Shown piece after piece: positions 7,911 to 62,860 of a stretch of DNA of 64,000 bases (positions are counted from its first letter, which is position 1; each line of letters opens with the position of its first letter). The stretch covers positions 1-64,000 of the forward strand of contig QHRU01000046.1 of assembly GCA_003220225.1 (NCBI GenBank), written 5' to 3'. The notes below the pieces were generated by a model that ran no database searches, had not been told where the DNA came from, and saw nothing but the letters and a program-made list of their open reading frames with translations. Origin of the DNA: Candidatus Rokuibacteriota bacterium. Lineage in GTDB: Bacteria; Methylomirabilota; Methylomirabilia; Rokubacteriales; CSP1-6. The position numbers and the translations under genes were made by a program.

Positions 7911-8402
7911 GTGCGCGTGGTTCTCCTCGTGCTCGCCGCGCTGCTCGCGCTGACGTCCACCAGCGCGGCCGCGCCGGCGGCGCCCGGATTCAAGGTGCGG
8001 CTCCTCGACGGACGCTCGCTCGACTCGCGCGACCTGATCGGTAAGAAGATCCTCGTGCTGCGCTTCCAGGCGTCGTACTGCAAGCCCTGCGCGAGGGAAT
8101 CGCCGGCGCTCGCGCGGCTGACCGAGCGCTACCGCGAGCGCGGCGTGGAGGTGCTCGCCATCCACGTGCAGGACGCGACCGTCGACGTCCGTCGATTCAT
8201 GCGCGCGAACAAGGTCAGCTACGCCGTCGCGCTCGATCCCAAGCTCACCATCGGCAACCGCTACGGCTTCAAGGGCACGCCGTACACGGTCGTGGTGGAC
8301 CGGCTGGGCGAGATCGTGGCGCGGCTGCACGGCGAGTCGGCCGTCACCCGCCTGCCGCGGGTGCTCGACGAAATCTTGAAACGGGAGCCGCCGCCCGCCT
8401 AA
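7911..8402 (+). CDS. secreted TlpA-like thiol-disulfide protein
   Basis: The 163-residue protein opens with a cleavable-looking signal peptide (about residues 1-22, ending AAA-APAAP) and continues as a thioredoxin fold of the AhpC/TSA-TlpA-ResA group. The redox motif is CKPC within FQASYCKPCARESPAL, and the cis-proline segment is GTPYTVVVDRLG. Such periplasmic proteins reduce or oxidise cysteines, for example of cytochrome c or copper proteins. It stands alone between a divergent dehydrogenase and a convergent metal transporter, so its partner is not evident. Confidence 0.85.
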   Translation: MRVVLLVLAALLALTSTSAAAPAAPGFKVRLLDGRSLDSRDLIGKKILVLRFQASYCKPCARESPALARLTERYRERGVEVLAIHVQDATVDVRRFMRANKVSYAVALDPKLTIGNRYGFKGTPYTVVVDRLGEIVARLHGESAVTRLPRVLDEILKREPPPA

Positions 8403-8407
8403 TTGAA

Positions 8408-8520
8408 TGGGGGGCCCCGATATGGCCCCCCAAACCCCCCAACGTTCGGAGCGCCCGGGGTGAACCCGGGCGCTCCTCTATCTCGCCGGCGAAGCCGTGG
8501 CACCCCTCGACACGCCGACA
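8408..8520. repeat. intergenic palindromic repeat, family 1 (copy A)
   Basis: The core is an inverted repeat with 9-bp arms TGGGGGGCC and GGCCCCCCA around CCGATAT (8408-8432). It is followed by a CCCCCC tract, a second hairpin (GAGCGCCCGGG / CCCGGGCGCTC) and the motif GGCGAAGCCGTGG. Related copies lie at 10752, 21386, 28945 and 60002 and, inverted, at 15374 and 42171. It fills the gap between two convergent genes. Confidence 0.8.
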
Positions 8521-9809: not shown

Positions 9810-10833
9810 AGAGCACGAGGGCGGCGGCTCCGCGCATGGTGAGCCGCTTGTCGCCCGGCACGATCGTGATCCGCGTCGCCGCCAGCGCGCGCGCGAACGC
9901 GTGCTCGGCCGCCGCGGCGAGGATCCGCTTCTCCAGCGCGGCGAGCGAGCCGGCCACGCCGCCGGTGACGACGACGACCTCGGGGTTGAGCCCGTTCACG
10001 ATCGTCGCGAGCATGGCGCCGAGCGCGCGGCATGCCTCGTCCACCACCGCCGCCGCGACGGGCTCGCCGTCCGTGGCCATCCGGAAAACGAGCTCGGCCG
10101 TGATCCGCTGCGCGTCGCCGCCGGCCGCCTGCAGCAGCGCCGCGCCCGCCTCGCGGGCGACGCGCGCGCGCGCCGCCTCGGTGATGCCCCGCCCGCTCGC
10201 GTAGACGGCGAGACAGCCGCGGCCGCCGCACCAGCAGGGCGGGCCGTCGAACTTCACGGGCGCGTGGCCGAACTCGCCGCCGAAGCCGGCGACGCCGCGC
10301 ACCAGGCGGCCGTCGAGGATCACACCCCCGCCGAACCCGGTGCCCGCCGCCAGCACCACGAGCGAGCGCGCGCCCCGCCCGGCGCCGAAGCGCCACTCGC
10401 CCAGCGCCAGCGCATTGACGTCGTTGTCGACGAAGGCGGGGATGCCGAAGCGCGCGGCGAGGCGCTGCGCCAGGGGCACGTCGACGAGATCGGGCGCGTG
10501 CGGCGCGGGGTCGCCGACGACGCCGGCCTCCGCGTCCACCGGGCCCGGCACGCCGACGCCGATGCCCGCGACCGTCAGCCCGCGCGCGGCGACCGCGGCA
10601 CGCACGCGCTCGACGAGCGCCTCGATCGCGGCCGGCGTGCCGACGGCCTTGGCGTCGCGCGTCGCCACCCGCTCGTCGAGCAGGACTTCGCCGTCGGGCG
10701 TGACCGCGCCGGCGGCGATCGTCGTCCCCCCTACGTCAAGGCCTATCAGGATGGGGGGCCCCGAAATGGCCCCCCATACCCCCCCGCGCTCGGGGCGCCC
10801 CGGGGAACCCGTGGCGCCCCTCGACATCCCCAC
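9784..10833 (-). CDS. ROK-family sugar kinase (glucokinase-like)
   Basis: The 349-residue protein has the ATP-binding DVGGTT motif (about 33-38), the catalytic DNDVNALALGE segment and the ROK zinc signature near 190-205 (GHAPVK then CWCGGRGCLAVYASG). It should phosphorylate glucose or a related hexose or N-acetylhexosamine. The gene begins inside repeat copy B: the first 27 or so residues (with SRGATGSPGRPERGGVWG) are encoded by the repeat, and true family sequence starts at ILIGLDVGG. GTG 10833 overlaps the stop of the ChbG-like gene as TAGTG; ATG 10827 is the alternative. No start is available inside the family-conserved part, so the repeat-derived extension is probably translated. Confidence 0.85.
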   Translation of the reverse strand: MGMSRGATGSPGRPERGGVWGAISGPPILIGLDVGGTTIAAGAVTPDGEVLLDERVATRDAKAVGTPAAIEALVERVRAAVAARGLTVAGIGVGVPGPVDAEAGVVGDPAPHAPDLVDVPLAQRLAARFGIPAFVDNDVNALALGEWRFGAGRGARSLVVLAAGTGFGGGVILDGRLVRGVAGFGGEFGHAPVKFDGPPCWCGGRGCLAVYASGRGITEAARARVAREAGAALLQAAGGDAQRITAELVFRMATDGEPVAAAVVDEACRALGAMLATIVNGLNPEVVVVTGGVAGSLAALEKRILAAAAEHAFARALAATRITIVPGDKRLTMRGAAALVLYERARRAA

Positions 10834-15095: not shown

Positions 15096-15174
15096 ACAGA
15101 CGGCTCATCGAGGACCGCCACGGCTTTGAAGGGAGCCACCCGAGCGTGGCCCCATCGAAGCGCGCGGCGACAGA

Positions 15175-15203
15175 GAAGCGGCCCGGCTATGCCGGGCCGC
15201 TTC
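15175..15203. repeat. perfect 13-bp stem hairpin
   Basis: The arms GAAGCGGCCCGGC and GCCGGGCCGCTTC are exact complements around a TAT loop. There is no T tract, so it is not a typical intrinsic terminator. It abuts the tandem repeat that follows. Confidence 0.75.
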
Positions 15204-15399
15204 GAACGTTGGGGGGGTTGGGGGCCATCGAGTCACGCGTGATCGAGGCGCGTCACGGCTGCGCCGGGACGTGCCGAGCGTTGGGGGGTTGGGGGCCAGG
15301 TCGGGGCCCATCGAGTCACGCGTGATCGAGGCGCGTCACGGCTGCGCCGGGACGTGCCGAGCGTTGGGGGGTTTGGGGGGCCATGTCGGGGCCCCCCAT
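15204..15399. repeat. palindromic repeat family 1, inverted, with an 83-bp tandem duplication (copy C)
   Basis: Two nearly identical 83-bp units begin at 15226 and 15309 (each starts CATCGAGTCACGCGTGATCG), followed by the core palindrome at 15374-15399 (TGGGGGGCC / GGCCCCCCA, loop ATGTCGG). Together with the hairpin at 15175 this fills the 319-bp gap between the helicase stop and the lipoprotein start. No gene is seen in it. Confidence 0.8.
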
Positions 15400-15402
15400 T
15401 TA

Positions 15403-21361: not shown

Positions 21362-21385
21362 TGCCCGCTCCCCTGTCAGTCAGTG

Positions 21386-21500
21386 TGGGGGGCCCCGATA
21401 TGGCCCCCCAGTCTCTTCAAGCGAAGGGGGCTACGCCCCCCTCGGACTCCCCCGGCCAACGCTCGGACGCGCCCCGGCGAAGCCGTGGCGCGCCTCGGGG
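21386..21500. repeat. palindromic repeat family 1 with extra hairpin (copy D)
   Basis: The core is at 21386-21410 (TGGGGGGCC / GGCCCCCCA, loop CCGATAT). It is followed by a second palindrome, CGAAGGGGGC tac GCCCCCCTCGG, and the GGCGAAGCCGTGGCGCGCC end. It is nearly identical to copy E at 28945. It sits inside the ABC operon between the AroM and permease genes and is open in the permease frame. Confidence 0.85.
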
Positions 21501-21505
21501 TTGAA

Positions 21506-27029: not shown

Positions 27030-28115
27030 CTACGGCGTCGGCGGCAGCAGCACCGTGAAGCACGCCCCCTGGCCGACGCCGGGGCTGCTCGCCTCCACGC
27101 GACCGCCGTGCAGCTCGACGAGCTGACGGACGATCGCGAGCCCGAGTCCCAGGCCGGAGCCCACGGCGCGGCCGTCGCCCTGCCGGTAGGGCTCGAAGAC
27201 ATATGGGAGCAGCTCGGGCCCGATGCCATGGCCCTCGTCGCGCACGACGATGCGCGCGCCGGCGCCGACGGCATCGACGCTCACGTGAACGCTCGTCCCG
27301 CAGTCGCTGTGCTTGATCGCGTTGCCGAGCAGGTTCGAGACGACCTGCTGCAGCCGCACGGCGTCGCCGCGCACGGGCGGACACGCTGAGACCACCTCGG
27401 TGACCACCTCGATGCCGCGCGCGCTGGCCGTCATCGCCACCGCGTCCACGGCGGCGTTGATGACGATACGCAGGTCGATCGTGTCGAGGTGCAGGGACAG
27501 ACGTCCCCGTCCGAGCCGGGAGAGATCGACGAGATCGGCGATCAGGCGCGCCTGCAGCATGGCGTTCCGGCGGATCGCCTCGAGCGCGCGGGCGGCCAGC
27601 GCGGGACCGAGGCGGGCGTCGCTCATCGCGGCGCTCCAGCTGACGATCGCCGTCAGGGGCGTCCGTAGCTCGTGCGCCACCATGGTGATGAAGTCGTCCT
27701 TCGCGCGGTTGGCCGCTTCCGCCTCCGCGCGGGCCGCCTGCTCGCGCTCGAGGAGCACGACGCGCTGGGCCGCCGAGCGTCGGCGCGCGTGGTCCAGCGC
27801 GCTGACGAAGAGCGCGACGGACACGAACACCACCAGGCGGGCGACGACTTCCTCGTTGATCGTGAGCATCAGCCGCGTCGACGACATTTCGGCGTCGAGC
27901 GCCACCGCCGCCAGCGCGGTCGCCAGCAGCCCGCAGCCGAGGCCGCCGTACCAGGCGCTCACCATCACCGCTGCCACGAACAGCGGCGAGTCGGCCGCGT
28001 GGGTCAGCGGCCGGAGCAGCGCGCTGGCGGCGCTCGCCGTGAGCACCACGACGATGGTGACGGCCGCGCGTGGTGGCCACGCGGTCGCGCCGAGCGCCCT
28101 CAGACGAGCGGCCAT
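27030..28115 (-). CDS. membrane sensor histidine kinase with KdpD-like (DUF4118) N terminus
   Basis: The 361-residue kinase starts with three to four membrane spans resembling the DUF4118 sensor of KdpD (LFVAAVMVSAWYGGLGCGLLAT). A coiled-coil linker (about 115-140) leads to the HisKA box VAHELRTPLTAI with the phospho-His near 145, then the ATPase motifs NLLGNAIKHS, DEGHGI and GLGLAIV. No response regulator is adjacent, so the partner is elsewhere. The ATG overlaps the small membrane gene upstream by 16 bp. Confidence 0.85.
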   Translation of the reverse strand: MAARLRALGATAWPPRAAVTIVVVLTASAASALLRPLTHAADSPLFVAAVMVSAWYGGLGCGLLATALAAVALDAEMSSTRLMLTINEEVVARLVVFVSVALFVSALDHARRRSAAQRVVLLEREQAARAEAEAANRAKDDFITMVAHELRTPLTAIVSWSAAMSDARLGPALAARALEAIRRNAMLQARLIADLVDLSRLGRGRLSLHLDTIDLRIVINAAVDAVAMTASARGIEVVTEVVSACPPVRGDAVRLQQVVSNLLGNAIKHSDCGTSVHVSVDAVGAGARIVVRDEGHGIGPELLPYVFEPYRQGDGRAVGSGLGLGLAIVRQLVELHGGRVEASSPGVGQGACFTVLLPPTP

Positions 28116-28934: not shown

Positions 28935-28944
28935 CGATCGTCGT

Positions 28945-29060
28945 GGAGGGCCCCGATATGGCCCCCCAGCCTCTTCAAGCGAAGGGGGCTACGCCCCCCT
29001 CGGACTCCCCCGGCCATCGCTCGGACGCGCCCCGGCGCAGCCGTGGCGCGCCTCGGGCTT
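28945..29060. repeat. palindromic repeat family 1 with extra hairpin (copy E)
   Basis: Almost identical over about 115 bp to copy D (21386-21500), including the CTCTTCAAGCGAAGGGGGCT segment and the GCAGCCGTGGCGCGCC end. This recent similarity across 7.5 kb indicates a family that still spreads or recombines. Confidence 0.85.
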
Positions 29061-29094
29061 GACACAGGATGTCTCATCGAACCTGCACCGTATC

Positions 29095-42170: not shown

Positions 42171-42278
42171 GGTGGGGGGCCATTTCGGGGCCGCTCGCGC
42201 GTGATCGAGGAGCGCCACGGGTTTCCCGGGGCGCTCCGAGCGTTGGGGGGTGTGGGGGGCCATTTCGGGGCCCCCCAC
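42171..42278. repeat. palindromic repeat family 1, inverted and duplicated (copy F)
   Basis: Two cores (TGGGGGGCC at 42174 and again at 42253, each followed by ATTTCGGGGCC) flank GCGTGATCGAGGAGCGCCAC and a GTTTCCCGGGGCGCTCCGAGCG segment. It follows the stop of the membrane protein gene. It is the first part of the 333-bp gap up to 42484; the rest holds the promoter and leader described below. Confidence 0.8.
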
Positions 42279-42374
42279 GTTCAACGGGCAACGTGCCCGA
42301 CGGCGTCGGGCGCGGCGCCGTCGGGCACCGATGCGCATCGCTCGTAAGTCCGCGGTTTCCCGATACCGCGCGTC

Positions 42375-42484: not shown

Positions 42485-42667
42485 ATGGACATGGACACCT
42501 GGTACGAGCTCAGGCTCCGAGAGATGTCCGACCTGAACGCGGCGGCAAACGAGCTGCTGCGTGAAGCGAACGAGGTCCTAAGGTCGCCCGACGACGCGGA
42601 GGAGGAAGAGGAGCAACGCCGCGGCGCCGACGACGACCCAGACCGATCCTCTCGGGAAGCGCAGTAA
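42485..42667 (+). CDS. possible 60-residue acidic protein
   Basis: ATG 42485 begins MDMDTWYELRLREMSDL and continues as a charged helical segment with a run of glutamates. It follows the sigma54-like promoter and the three-hairpin leader. The last 90 bp are antisense to a well-supported small membrane gene, and no good Shine-Dalgarno sequence is seen, so the coding status is uncertain. The first 35 residues look like a genuine amphipathic helix. Confidence 0.35.
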   Translation: MDMDTWYELRLREMSDLNAAANELLREANEVLRSPDDAEEEEEQRRGADDDPDRSSREAQ

Positions 42668-42748
42668 TTCGACGAGCGCGATCGCGAAGCCGGCGGCGAT
42701 GACGACGCCGCCGGCCGCGAGCGTCGACCACCGAGCCGACCGCTTCAT
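42578..42748 (-). CDS. small two-span membrane protein
   Basis: The 56-residue protein has two hydrophobic helices (about 9-28 and 34-52, WSTLAAGGVVIAAGFAIALV and SVWVVVGAAALLLFLL) and basic ends. ATG 42748 overlaps the stop of the GT9 gene as ATGA, which supports translation. It ends the minus-strand series that starts at 45663. No family is recognised. Confidence 0.58.
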   Translation of the reverse strand: MKRSARWSTLAAGGVVIAAGFAIALVELLRFPRGSVWVVVGAAALLLFLLRVVGRP

Positions 42749-43689
42749 CCGAGTATCGCGTCCAGCGCGCCCCGCACCTCGCTGACATCCCCCGCCTCGG
42801 CACGCTCGAGGGACACCGTCAGCACGCGCGCCGCGTGCGCCCACGGCCGCCACCCGAGGTTGGCCGCCGCGAAGAGCAGCAGCGCCGGCGCGCCGACGGC
42901 CGCCGCCAGATGACTCACTCCCGAATCGTTGCCCACGTACGCCGCGCACCTCGCCAGGACACCCGCGAGCGCGGGCAGGGACGGCTCACGCAGCCGGCGC
43001 GCCGACGGCACGAGCCGCAGCAGGCGCGCCGCCGGCTCGGCGTCGGCGGGGCCCTCGTGCACCATGATCTCGACGTCGCGTCGCGCGGCGAGCGGCGCCA
43101 GCGCCTCCGCGAACGCCGCCGCCGGCCAGCGCTTGGCGGCCGAGCCCGCGCCCGGATGCACGACGACGACGCGTCGCGCGCCGTCCGAGCCGGCGCCGGC
43201 GAGCGTCGCGCGGCCTTCGGCGACGAGGGTATCGCTCACGCGCGCGACGTCGCGCCGCTCGCGCGCGTCGCCGGTCGTCGCCAGCAGATGCCGCCACACG
43301 TCACGCCCCGGCGCGCCGGGGGTGTCCGAGGGGGGCGTCAGCCCCCCTCGGTCAACTGACGCCGCGACGATCGCCCCGGGGCTGATCGCCGCCAGCCGCC
43401 GCGCGAAGTCGGGATCGCGCGCGCCGAACCAGCAGACGACGCGCTCCACCGCCGGCAGCCGCGCGCCGCGCTCGCCGGCGAACAGCGCATCCAGGCGCAG
43501 CGACTCGAAGTCACAGCCGTCGTCGGTCTCGTCGAGCGCGACCAGCAGCGAGGCGATCCGGGGCTGGGCGGCGAGCGTCAGCCGCGCGCCGGCGGCTCTC
43601 AGCGCGCGGAGGGCGGGAATCGCGAGCAGCACGTCGCCGAGCGCACCGGGATGGATGGCGAGCGTCGCGCTCGCCACGGCGCGACTCAC
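42745..43689 (-). CDS. glycosyltransferase family 9 (heptosyltransferase-like) protein
   Basis: The 314-residue protein has GT9 features: the N-terminal IHPGALGDVLLAIPALRALR, HPGAGSAAKRWP in the nucleotide-sugar domain, and the C-terminal GNDSGVSHLAAAVGAPALLLF. It should add a heptose or similar sugar to an LPS-type core. Between the two domains, about residues 113-121, lies an in-frame palindromic repeat that encodes DRGGLTPPSDTPG-type residues not expected in the family. GTG 43689 overlaps the stop of the phosphatase gene (GTGA). Confidence 0.82.
   Translation of the reverse strand: MSRAVASATLAIHPGALGDVLLAIPALRALRAAGARLTLAAQPRIASLLVALDETDDGCDFESLRLDALFAGERGARLPAVERVVCWFGARDPDFARRLAAISPGAIVAASVDRGGLTPPSDTPGAPGRDVWRHLLATTGDARERRDVARVSDTLVAEGRATLAGAGSDGARRVVVVHPGAGSAAKRWPAAAFAEALAPLAARRDVEIMVHEGPADAEPAARLLRLVPSARRLREPSLPALAGVLARCAAYVGNDSGVSHLAAAVGAPALLLFAAANLGWRPWAHAARVLTVSLERAEAGDVSEVRGALDAILG
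43326..43351. repeat. palindromic repeat inserted in frame inside the GT9 gene
   Basis: CCGAGGGGGGC and GCCCCCCTCGG are perfect 11-bp arms around GTCA. The same palindrome, with a TAC loop and one mismatch, is the second hairpin of copies D and E. It keeps the reading frame and contributes roughly ten residues between the two glycosyltransferase domains. Confidence 0.75.
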
Positions 43690-44471
43690 CGCCCGGCGAG
43701 CAGCGCGAGCGCGGCCTCGTGCAGGCGGCCGTTGCTGGCCAGCGCGTTGCCGGAGTAGATCGTCGGCTGGCCGGCGAAATCGGTGAAGCGCCCGCCCGCC
43801 TCCTCGACGACGATCTTGCACGGCGCGAGGTCCCACGGCTTGACGTCGACCTCGACGTACATCTCCGCCTTGCCCTCGGTGACGAGCGCGTAGCCGAGGT
43901 AGTCGCCGAAGCCGCGCTGGCGCTCGGTGGCATCGACCAGCCGCACGATGCCGTCCCACACGCCGGCCTTGCGATAGAGGCGCAGCCCCGCGTGCAGGAA
44001 CGTCGCCGACCACATGTCGCCGATGCTCGAGACGCTGACGCGCCGGCCGTTCAGCCGCGCGCCGCCCCCCTTGCGCGCGGCGTACAGCTCGCCCGTCACG
44101 GGATTGAGGATCACGCCGGCGACGATCTCACCGTGCGCCTCGAGCGCGAGCAGCGTCGCCCACACCGGGATCCGGCGCACGAAGTTCTTGGTGCCGTCGA
44201 TCGGATCGATGATCCAGCGGATGTCCGTGGCGCCCTTGGCGCCGAACTCCTCGCCGAGGAAGCCCCAGTCGGGAAACGCGCGGCCGAGCGTGGCCACGAT
44301 CGCCTCCTCGGCCTCGCGGTCCGCCTGGGTCACCGGCGTGTCGTCGGGCTTGATGGTCACCTCGAAGCCGGTCGTGTAGTACTTCATCGCCAGGGCGCCG
44401 GCCGCGCGCGCGGCCTCGGTGGCGGCCGCGAGCGCGCGCTCGAGCGTCGCCGGGTCGAGCGCCGTCGTCAT
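43686..44471 (-). CDS. inositol monophosphatase-family phosphatase (HisN/SuhB-like)
   Basis: The 261-residue protein has the complete metal-phosphatase motif set: GEEFG (about 80), WIIDPIDGTKNFVRRIP (about 95) and WDLAPCKIVVEEAGG near the C terminus. Family members hydrolyse inositol-1-phosphate, histidinol phosphate or PAP. The closest pattern is the HisN-type histidinol-phosphatase, but the neighbours do not include his genes. ATG 44471 overlaps the CMD gene stop by 4 bp. Confidence 0.86.
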   Translation of the reverse strand: MTTALDPATLERALAAATEAARAAGALAMKYYTTGFEVTIKPDDTPVTQADREAEEAIVATLGRAFPDWGFLGEEFGAKGATDIRWIIDPIDGTKNFVRRIPVWATLLALEAHGEIVAGVILNPVTGELYAARKGGGARLNGRRVSVSSIGDMWSATFLHAGLRLYRKAGVWDGIVRLVDATERQRGFGDYLGYALVTEGKAEMYVEVDVKPWDLAPCKIVVEEAGGRFTDFAGQPTIYSGNALASNGRLHEAALALLAGR

Positions 44472-52373: not shown

Positions 52374-53750
52374 TTACGGGCGATGCCGATGCACCCCGCC
52401 TTGCGTTTCGAGATAGGCGACGAGGTCCAGCAGGTCGGCGACGCTCAATACGTCGCGATAGTCGGGCATCGTCGAGCGTCCGTCCGGCCCCGTGTAGCCG
52501 GGGCCCTCGATGATGACGGCGTTGGGATCGAGGATCGATTCCGCGATGTAGCTCCGCGGATGGTGTCCGCCGATGCCGGTGAGCTCGGGCCCGGCGCCGG
52601 ACGGCGGCGGATAGGACTCACCACGGAGCCGGTGACAGCGGAAGCACTCGAGCCGCACGAACACATCTCGCCCCCGCCGCGGATTGCCAGAGGGCAGCCG
52701 AAACACCCAGCCGCGCGGCACGCCGCCCGCCTCGTGGAGCTGCTCCATCGTCGCGCGGATCGGATCGCGCCCGCCGTTCACGTCGGCGACGTGAGCGACG
52801 TGCCCCGCGTGGCGTGCCGGCGTCGTCTCGCCGAGCACCGCCGTGAGGCCGAGCACGGCCGCGCCGAGCGCGGCTTCGCAGGCCACCACGGTCACGAGCC
52901 GCGACGGGGACACGCGCGCCGGACCGAAGAGCGCAAGCCGGCAACGCCGGACGCCGCGCGCGACGAGACCGCGCGCGGGCAGGCCCGTGAGACGCGGGAG
53001 GAGCGCGTAGCGATTGGTCCCGCCGAGCAGCACGAGCACGACGACGAGCGCCAGCTTCGCGAGCAGGACCCGACCGTACGGGGTGTCGCGAAGCGCCGCC
53101 ACGTCCGGCAGCTGCACCCACGCGTTGTAGACGCCCGTCAGGACGACCGCCGCCAGCGACCAGCCGGCGAGCCGCGAGAACCTCGCGCAGATATGCGTGA
53201 CCGATGAAGGCGCCAGCGCCGACCCCGGACCGAACGCCACGAGCGCGAGCGCGACGACGCCGCCGATCCAGAGCGACGCCGCGAGCACATGGATCCAGTC
53301 CAGCAGGACGCTCGGCGTGACATCGCCCCAGTCGGCGGCGTGGCCGCTCAGCGCGGTCGTGAGCGCAATGGCGCCGGCCAGCGCCAGCGCGACGACCCGC
53401 GCGCGACGCGTCCCGATCGTTGCGGTCGAGAGCGACGCAACGAGAGCGAGACTGCGAGCGCTCCAGATCGTGCCGAAGTGCGTGCGCGACAGCACGAGCG
53501 GCACCGCTCGCACGGACTGCGCGAGGTCGCCGCCGGCCAGCGTTCGCGCCCGCAGCACGAGGTCCGCCACGGACGTCAGCGCCAGCATGCAGAGGCACAC
53601 GACGGTCCAGCCACGGAGGCGACGACGCACCGGGGAGGGAGCGACGTCGTCCGCGCGCAGCACCAAGACCTCGATCGCGAGACCGCCGACGAGGCCGGCG
53701 AGCGCGCCGAGCGCGATCCACCGCACGAGCATCGCGACGGCCGGCGTCAC
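52374..53750 (-). CDS. copD: CopD-family membrane protein fused to cytochrome c domain
   Basis: The 458-residue protein has eight or so spans in the CopD/PcoD pattern (about 1-300, including LDWIHVLAASLWIGGVVAL and the Tyr-Gly loop). A cytochrome c domain follows (about 320-455) with haem motif CFRCH near 368 and an axial Met candidate in RSTMPDYRDVL. It probably handles copper at the inner membrane while accepting or donating electrons. The haem domain is a paralogue of the one in 56574-57446. GTG 53750 overlaps the upstream CopC stop. Confidence 0.85.
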   Translation of the reverse strand: MTPAVAMLVRWIALGALAGLVGGLAIEVLVLRADDVAPSPVRRRLRGWTVVCLCMLALTSVADLVLRARTLAGGDLAQSVRAVPLVLSRTHFGTIWSARSLALVASLSTATIGTRRARVVALALAGAIALTTALSGHAADWGDVTPSVLLDWIHVLAASLWIGGVVALALVAFGPGSALAPSSVTHICARFSRLAGWSLAAVVLTGVYNAWVQLPDVAALRDTPYGRVLLAKLALVVVLVLLGGTNRYALLPRLTGLPARGLVARGVRRCRLALFGPARVSPSRLVTVVACEAALGAAVLGLTAVLGETTPARHAGHVAHVADVNGGRDPIRATMEQLHEAGGVPRGWVFRLPSGNPRRGRDVFVRLECFRCHRLRGESYPPPSGAGPELTGIGGHHPRSYIAESILDPNAVIIEGPGYTGPDGRSTMPDYRDVLSVADLLDLVAYLETQGGVHRHRP

Positions 53751-59779: not shown

Positions 59780-59977
59780 GTGAAGGTGGCCGTGGCGCTG
59801 GCGACGCTGCTGCTGGGCGCTGATCCGGCCTGGGCCGATCACGGCGGGCCGCTGCGCACGGCCGGCTGGAGCCCGCTCACCGCGGCGCTCGTGTTCGGTG
59901 GGCTCGCGCTGCTCGCCGGCATGCTCGTGGTCGTGATCGTCGCGCTGCTGAGCCGCCGCGACCGCCCCTCGTCCTGA
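59780..59977 (+). CDS. small membrane protein ending the copper cluster
   Basis: A 65-residue protein has a signal-like first helix (VAVALATLLLGADPAWA), a short DHGGPLR loop and a second span (ALVFGGLALLAGMLVVVIVALL) with a basic tail. GTG 59780 follows AGGAGGG. It is 13 nt after the CusF-like gene and thus in the same operon. No family is recognised. Confidence 0.62.
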   Translation: MKVAVALATLLLGADPAWADHGGPLRTAGWSPLTAALVFGGLALLAGMLVVVIVALLSRRDRPSS

Positions 59978-60001
59978 CGACGTCGTCCGCGCCTAGTGAC
60001 A

Positions 60002-60125
60002 TGGGGGGCCCCGAAATGGCCCCCCATACCCCCCACACGCTCGTCGCGCCCCGGCGAAGCCGTGGCGCGCCTCGACCTCCAACGCTCGGGGCGCCCCGGC
60101 GAAGCCGTGGCACCCCTCGATACTC
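60002..60125. repeat. palindromic repeat family 1 (copy G)
   Basis: The core TGGGGGGCC / GGCCCCCCA with loop CCGAAAT is at 60002-60027. Two consecutive GCGCCCCGGCGAAGCCGTGGC units follow, at about 60048 and 60090. It separates the convergent copper cluster and LysR gene. Confidence 0.8.
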
Positions 60126-60139
60126 CAACAGGCTCCTGA

Positions 60140-62727: not shown

Positions 62728-62759
62728 AGCTTCGCTTCGGAGGGGGCCTGAGCTTCGCA

Positions 62760-62860
62760 TCGGAGGGGGCCTCGACGGTCCCCTCCGATGCCTCCCCCCA
62801 GGATTTCTTTCGGAGGGGGCCCCGACGGCCCCCTCCGACGCCTCCCCCCAGGATTGCGCC
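62760..62860. repeat. 50-bp tandem palindromic repeat, family 3
   Basis: Two 50-bp units start at 62760 and 62810. Each contains TCGGAGGGGGCC / GGCCCCCTCCGA arms with a 5-7 nt loop and ends GCCTCCCCCCAGGATT. Partial units precede at about 62736. A GCCGGC / GCCGGC hairpin follows at 62858. Confidence 0.8.

Follow-up and report, generated by a model that had tools for sequence, protein, structure and literature searches.

A 39-bp palindromic repeat inserted in frame in a GT9 glycosyltransferase gene, and its relatives in other enzyme genes, in a Rokubacteria genome

Rickettsia palindromic elements (RPEs) are described, in passages of three papers (PMC3767692, PMC2229807, PMC10969869), as palindromes of about 100-150 bp that lie in frame in Rickettsia genes and have similar counterparts in Wolbachia; the same passages report that inserts of this type are solvent-exposed. 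Two other classes of small repeat are close to them. REP sequences are described in PMC3733652 as palindromic repeats of 20-40 bp. Small MITEs with reading frames (ERIC/RU-1, YPAL/RU-2 and the 107-bp form of Correia) are treated in PMC2229807 as non-autonomous elements that are fused in frame to genes. The MITEs tabulated there are about 100-200 bp long; terminal inverted repeats are present in most of them and target duplications in several.

The repeat described here, from a GC-rich Rokubacteria host rather than a member of the Rickettsiales, works like an RPE. It is a palindromic stem-loop found both between genes and in frame within unrelated conserved genes, and homologues of these genes have empty sites. 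The likeness is one of features, and by length or taxon the repeat is not an RPE: it measures 39 bp instead of about 100-150 bp, and it is read in several frames and in both orientations. The parallel with the Rickettsia elements drawn in a preliminary description of this locus therefore stands as a functional analogy, not as membership of that family. In-frame palindromic DNA in protein-coding genes is familiar above all from Rickettsia and Wolbachia and now appears in another, distant phylum; filled sites there have empty counterparts in near relatives, which suggests that small intracellular genomes are no prerequisite for the phenomenon. A search of the open-access literature found no report of such an element in Rokubacteria.

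The source genome (G000), that of a soil bacterium, is a 6.03-Mb draft in 167 contigs, 97% complete, and the window, that is, the whole stretch of 64,000 nucleotides that was analysed, is part of its contig 28. The minus strand of the window encodes, at 42745..43683, a heptosyltransferase-like GT9 glycosyltransferase (PF01075, E 3.8e-20), the nearest named relatives of which are proteins of Candidatus Rokuibacteriota MAGs. Foldseek best matches for its structural model are the GT9 protein 3tov and heptosyltransferase II, 1psw (E 1.3e-13). Judging from the frame, translation probably starts from a GTG at about 43677. Pairwise dN/dS against the congener G008 is about 0.37 for the GT9 gene, and 0.14 and 0.09 for segments of two further host genes, FdhA and PurL, respectively; with values this low, the host genes look functional and under purifying selection.

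A perfect 11-bp palindrome with a 4-nt loop (CCGAGGGGGGC-GTCA-GCCCCCCTCGG) lies within this gene at 43326..43351, exactly where the preliminary description had placed it and in frame, as it had stated. The palindrome occurs only once in the window and in 0 of 100 dinucleotide shuffles, and its hairpin has a fold z-score of -4.15. It had been taken for the inserted unit itself; it is indeed the core of the insert, but the unit is larger, a 39-bp element (element B) at 43316..43354 on the plus strand, which the minus-strand GT9 frame reads as the 13 residues DRGGLTPPSDTPG, numbers 111-123. A covariance model of the element matches the site at 43316-43358 with 54 bits (E 2.7e-8 genome-wide).

The 13 residues are absent from 25 of 25 aligned GT9 homologues (an alignment that keeps L103, whose frame breaks downstream), so the counter-case foreseen at the outset, in which all homologues share them, fails. 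Both sequenced congeners, G008 (79% identical) and G009 (71%), lack the insert at the protein and the DNA level. On the coding strand of G009, GTCAGT directly abuts CGCGCC, whereas the source genome has 39 bases (TGACC...CCCGG) in between; relative to G009 this is an exact 39-bp insertion, in which no flank is repeated and no target duplication is visible. One genome only carries the insert, which very probably is a genuine 39-bp palindromic repeat inserted in frame and specific to this lineage. An ordinary indel, in which slippage lengthened a Gly/Pro-rich linker of a GC-rich gene and produced a chance resemblance to the repeats, would suit the GC-rich insert and the variable length of this loop in other homologues, for example L067. 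It is barely credible, however, in view of the full-length match to a dispersed family at the E-value given above and the recurrence of the same sequence in unrelated genes and in composite repeats.

The description of the insert as a loop between the two domains of the enzyme holds approximately: residues 111-123 follow the final strand of the N-terminal domain and precede the C-terminal Pfam match, whose first residue is 165. An AlphaFold model built with 33 sequences has a mean pLDDT of 93.4, while the mean falls to 58 in block 111-120 and 68 in block 121-130, and residues 116-119 are below 50. Residues 111-123 are thus predicted to be the sole poorly ordered stretch, a low-confidence loop in an otherwise confident protein model, which agrees with the loop proposed earlier.

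The consensus of the element is CCGGGGGAGTCCGAGGGGGGCGTAGCCCCCCTCGCTTGA; it starts with CCGGGGGAG and finishes with CTTGA. Four of its six reading frames contain no stop, a fifth has one at its last codon and the sixth has one in the middle. A covariance model trained on 24 copies gave 45 matches at E<0.01 and 65 at E<=1 in the 6.0-Mb genome, and a pattern scan of both strands gave 34 matches against 0 for the reversed control. Four further sites fall outside the 45: C95:27272 (E 0.02) and C97:77014 (E 0.01), which were at first taken as copies, a copy at the C-terminal end of a TldD-like gene (C42:71140, E 0.18) and the second copy in a gamma-glutamyltransferase gene (C98:52447, E 0.13).

Composites hold 33 of the 45 copies, the other 12 being solo. 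The composite layout is module A, element B and a module C that bears the hairpin TGGGGGGCCATNTCGGGGCCCCCCA; the count of 33 consists of 28 of the top 30 matches and five recognised by eye, and module C was recognised by eye only in two of the top-30 rows; in row L267 the pattern match fell on the neighbouring copy in the same gene. Composites that lack B have 8 nt between A and C, and most of those that include it have 47 nt (17 and 56 nt, respectively, with longer anchoring), a difference of 39; single rows with 44, 46 and 50 nt are also present. The 39-bp length recurs here in composites, where a reading frame would presumably matter little.

Two A-B-C composites occur on the minus strand of the window, at 21385..21504 (covariance-model match 21414-21455) and at 28943..29062 (match 28972-29013), and are 96% identical. 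Taken as the intergenic copies D and E of the preliminary description, which had assigned to them the same hairpin as in GT9, they prove related but not identical: the loop of their copies is GTA, one base of an arm is mismatched (CCCCCTTCG), and each copy forms part of a composite of three hairpins. A composite of A and C without the 39-bp element, that is, the empty form, adjoins the GT9 gene at 42178..42280 on the plus strand. A second, BIME-like repeat family, built of the two hairpin modules A and C (the latter with TGGGGGGCCATNTCGGGGCCCCCCA) and mostly without the 39-bp element, lies in the window at 8397-8489, 10719-10833, 15144-15400, 42178-42280 and 59969-60129.

The stability of the GT9 hairpin, together with composites that could serve as 3' structures, is what would be expected of a regulatory RNA structure (a terminator, attenuator or processing site) retained by selection. 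Such a role is nevertheless improbable, because copies occur in either orientation and at unrelated positions in genes, a terminator scan of 42600-43800 was empty and the window has no Rfam match at the gathering threshold. A promoter scan of 42600-43800 likewise returned nothing.

Six of the 12 solo copies lie in frame inside genes, two form the 3' ends of genes and four are in no recognised gene (C108:74783, C144:1201, C62:35474 and C159:29668). The six interior copies, all in frame and stop-free, reside in the genes for GT9, formate dehydrogenase (twice), PurL, gamma-glutamyltransferase and a hydantoinase-type protein. The proposal that the repeats spread into coding sequence is borne out by these additional in-frame copies in the same genome and by those in the formate dehydrogenases of six other genomes. 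Hairpins that the ribosome skips are known from the byp elements of mitochondria, and a short hairpin insert in conserved genes might be thought to behave in the same way, so that the 13 residues are never made. Translational bypass, however, would not need all six interior copies to be in frame and free of stops, and it is most improbable here.

The formate dehydrogenase with two copies is of the FdhA type (TIGR01591, 712 bits, cut-off 666), and the PurL host gene scores 999 bits with NF002290. The gamma-glutamyltransferase matches PF01019 and reaches 342.6 bits with TIGR00066, under the cut-off of 357.85; the hydantoinase-type gene matches PF01968. Empty sites in GT9, PurL and FdhA were judged against close relatives, and those in the gamma-glutamyltransferase and hydantoinase-type genes against distant solved structures. 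PurL has 16 residues between NET and AILP versus 3 in G008, a genome in which the site is empty and the piece of the gene that was searched is 96% identical; the flanks have diverged from those of G008, and no target duplication was seen. The net insert amounts to 13 residues in GT9, PurL and FdhA site 3 (source genome and G006, each with 16 residues against 3) and to 12 residues at FdhA site 1, where the 39-bp rule is not exact.

Shorter sequences occupy the PurL insertion loop in G027 (L294) and G005 (L313) and could have arisen from the element by decay. The gamma-glutamyltransferase gene (L284, G000:C98:50400-54500) has two tandem in-frame copies (contig 52402-52477) directly upstream of the start of the small subunit, which is the precursor cut site in solved homologues. 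At the 3' ends of genes, a cupin gene (L161, G000:C48:67500-72500) takes its final codons and its TAA from the element (contig 69893-69934), which overlaps the next start codon (TAAATG), and the stop codon of a 2Fe-2S subunit gene is a TAG in the element loop. A sub-variant with a collapsed loop (GGGGGGTCTCCCCC; L281, G000:C93:25800-29900, contig 27827-27867; L207 site 2; L285) is common to the hydantoinase-type gene, the formate dehydrogenase insert of G008 and one further copy.

Beyond the source genome, the hairpin pattern with <=2 mismatches occurs in 22 of 57 family genomes, and the reversed control matched G032 only. FdhA was aligned for 20 genomes (L206-L225) out of 48 with a match. At E<0.01 the covariance model recognises two FdhA inserts in the source genome, one each in G006, G008, G012, G014 and G016, and two in G019; the insert of G006 was in the training set of the model, and those of G008, G012, G014, G016 and G019 were outside it. 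Inserts seen by eye only are those of G004 at site 1, G002 and G012 at site 2, and G014 at site 3. The congener G008 is without the site-3 insert, which the source genome and G006 have. Draft assemblies such as this one are liable to mis-joining at repeats; an assembly artefact has very little to commend it, however, given diverged in-frame copies not only in several genes but also in a number of independent genomes, with open frames kept and purifying selection.

Across the family, the FdhA insertion hot spots are three loops, of which sites 1 and 3 hold both orientations. The presence of both orientations implies at least two events at each of these two sites, and recurrent insertion into these loops of one enzyme amounts to a natural experiment on proteins that gain segments. 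G027 and G029 have FdhA loop inserts without a palindromic look. Eighty loci fetched via GT9 (0.5 Mb; 24 from Rokubacteria/Methylomirabilota and 56 from others) gave 0 covariance-model matches at E<=0.1, which, given the observed copy density, is weak evidence either way. An exact-pattern scan of viral contigs gave 0 matches, and hence no phage carrier at such sensitivity.

REP elements of enterobacteria and pseudomonads are mobilised by RAYT (Y1 HUH) transposases. GTAG and CGTC tags are a feature of REP/RAYT systems, and Y1 elements insert without target duplication. The present element resembles REP, BIME and REPIN sequences in being a small single-hairpin repeat of 39 bp with many copies (45 at E<0.01), mostly in composites with other hairpins, and its insertion in GT9 without target duplication also fits mobilisation by a RAYT. 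It differs in its repeated insertion into coding sequence, in a consensus 5' end that has neither a GTAG nor a CGTC tag, and in the lack of a RAYT where copies are plentiful: the draft assemblies of the source genome and of the copy-rich G006, G007 and G008 contain 0 proteins with Y1_Tnp (PF01797), and just 11 of the 57 family genomes have one. Mobilisation as a REP element by a RAYT is thus unlikely, and the REP identity was rejected on the missing RAYT and tag. Like the small MITEs, the element is apparently non-autonomous and fused in frame to genes, but it is shorter and lacks terminal inverted repeats (the ends, CCGGGG.. and ..CTTGA, are unpaired and the hairpin is internal) as well as a target duplication at GT9 relative to G009; a MITE identity was rejected on the latter two grounds.

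The GT9 insert is very probably a copy of a non-autonomous 39-bp palindromic mobile element that entered the gene after the split from the two sequenced congeners. Several properties may explain why such an element persists in genes: its 39 bp would add 13 whole codons, most of its frames would be read through without a stop, and in exposed loops an extra Gly/Pro-rich segment would be harmless. Insertions elsewhere would be purged. The element would then be selfish DNA without known function that leaves new loop peptides behind. The most likely route of movement, offered as a guess, is strand transfer from a single-stranded hairpin with the machinery supplied in trans, and the element offers a way to find the machinery that moves such tiny repeats.

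A wider reading, also tentative, is that Rokubacteria host a frame-neutral kind of mobile DNA. A fixed 39-bp (13-codon) element with mostly open frames might colonise genes at low cost, moved by machinery other than a RAYT or a transposase that makes duplications, while selection would keep its length a multiple of three. Conserved enzymes might thereby have acquired new peptide loops repeatedly, as in formate dehydrogenase (at three loops), PurL and gamma-glutamyltransferase.

Another GC-rich type of repeat is present at 62757-62838 of the window, where two perfect hairpins with 12-bp arms adjoin each other. Akin to these are hairpins of the form CTCGGAGGGGGG..CCCCCCTTCCGA elsewhere in the genome, some of which lie directly after a stop codon.
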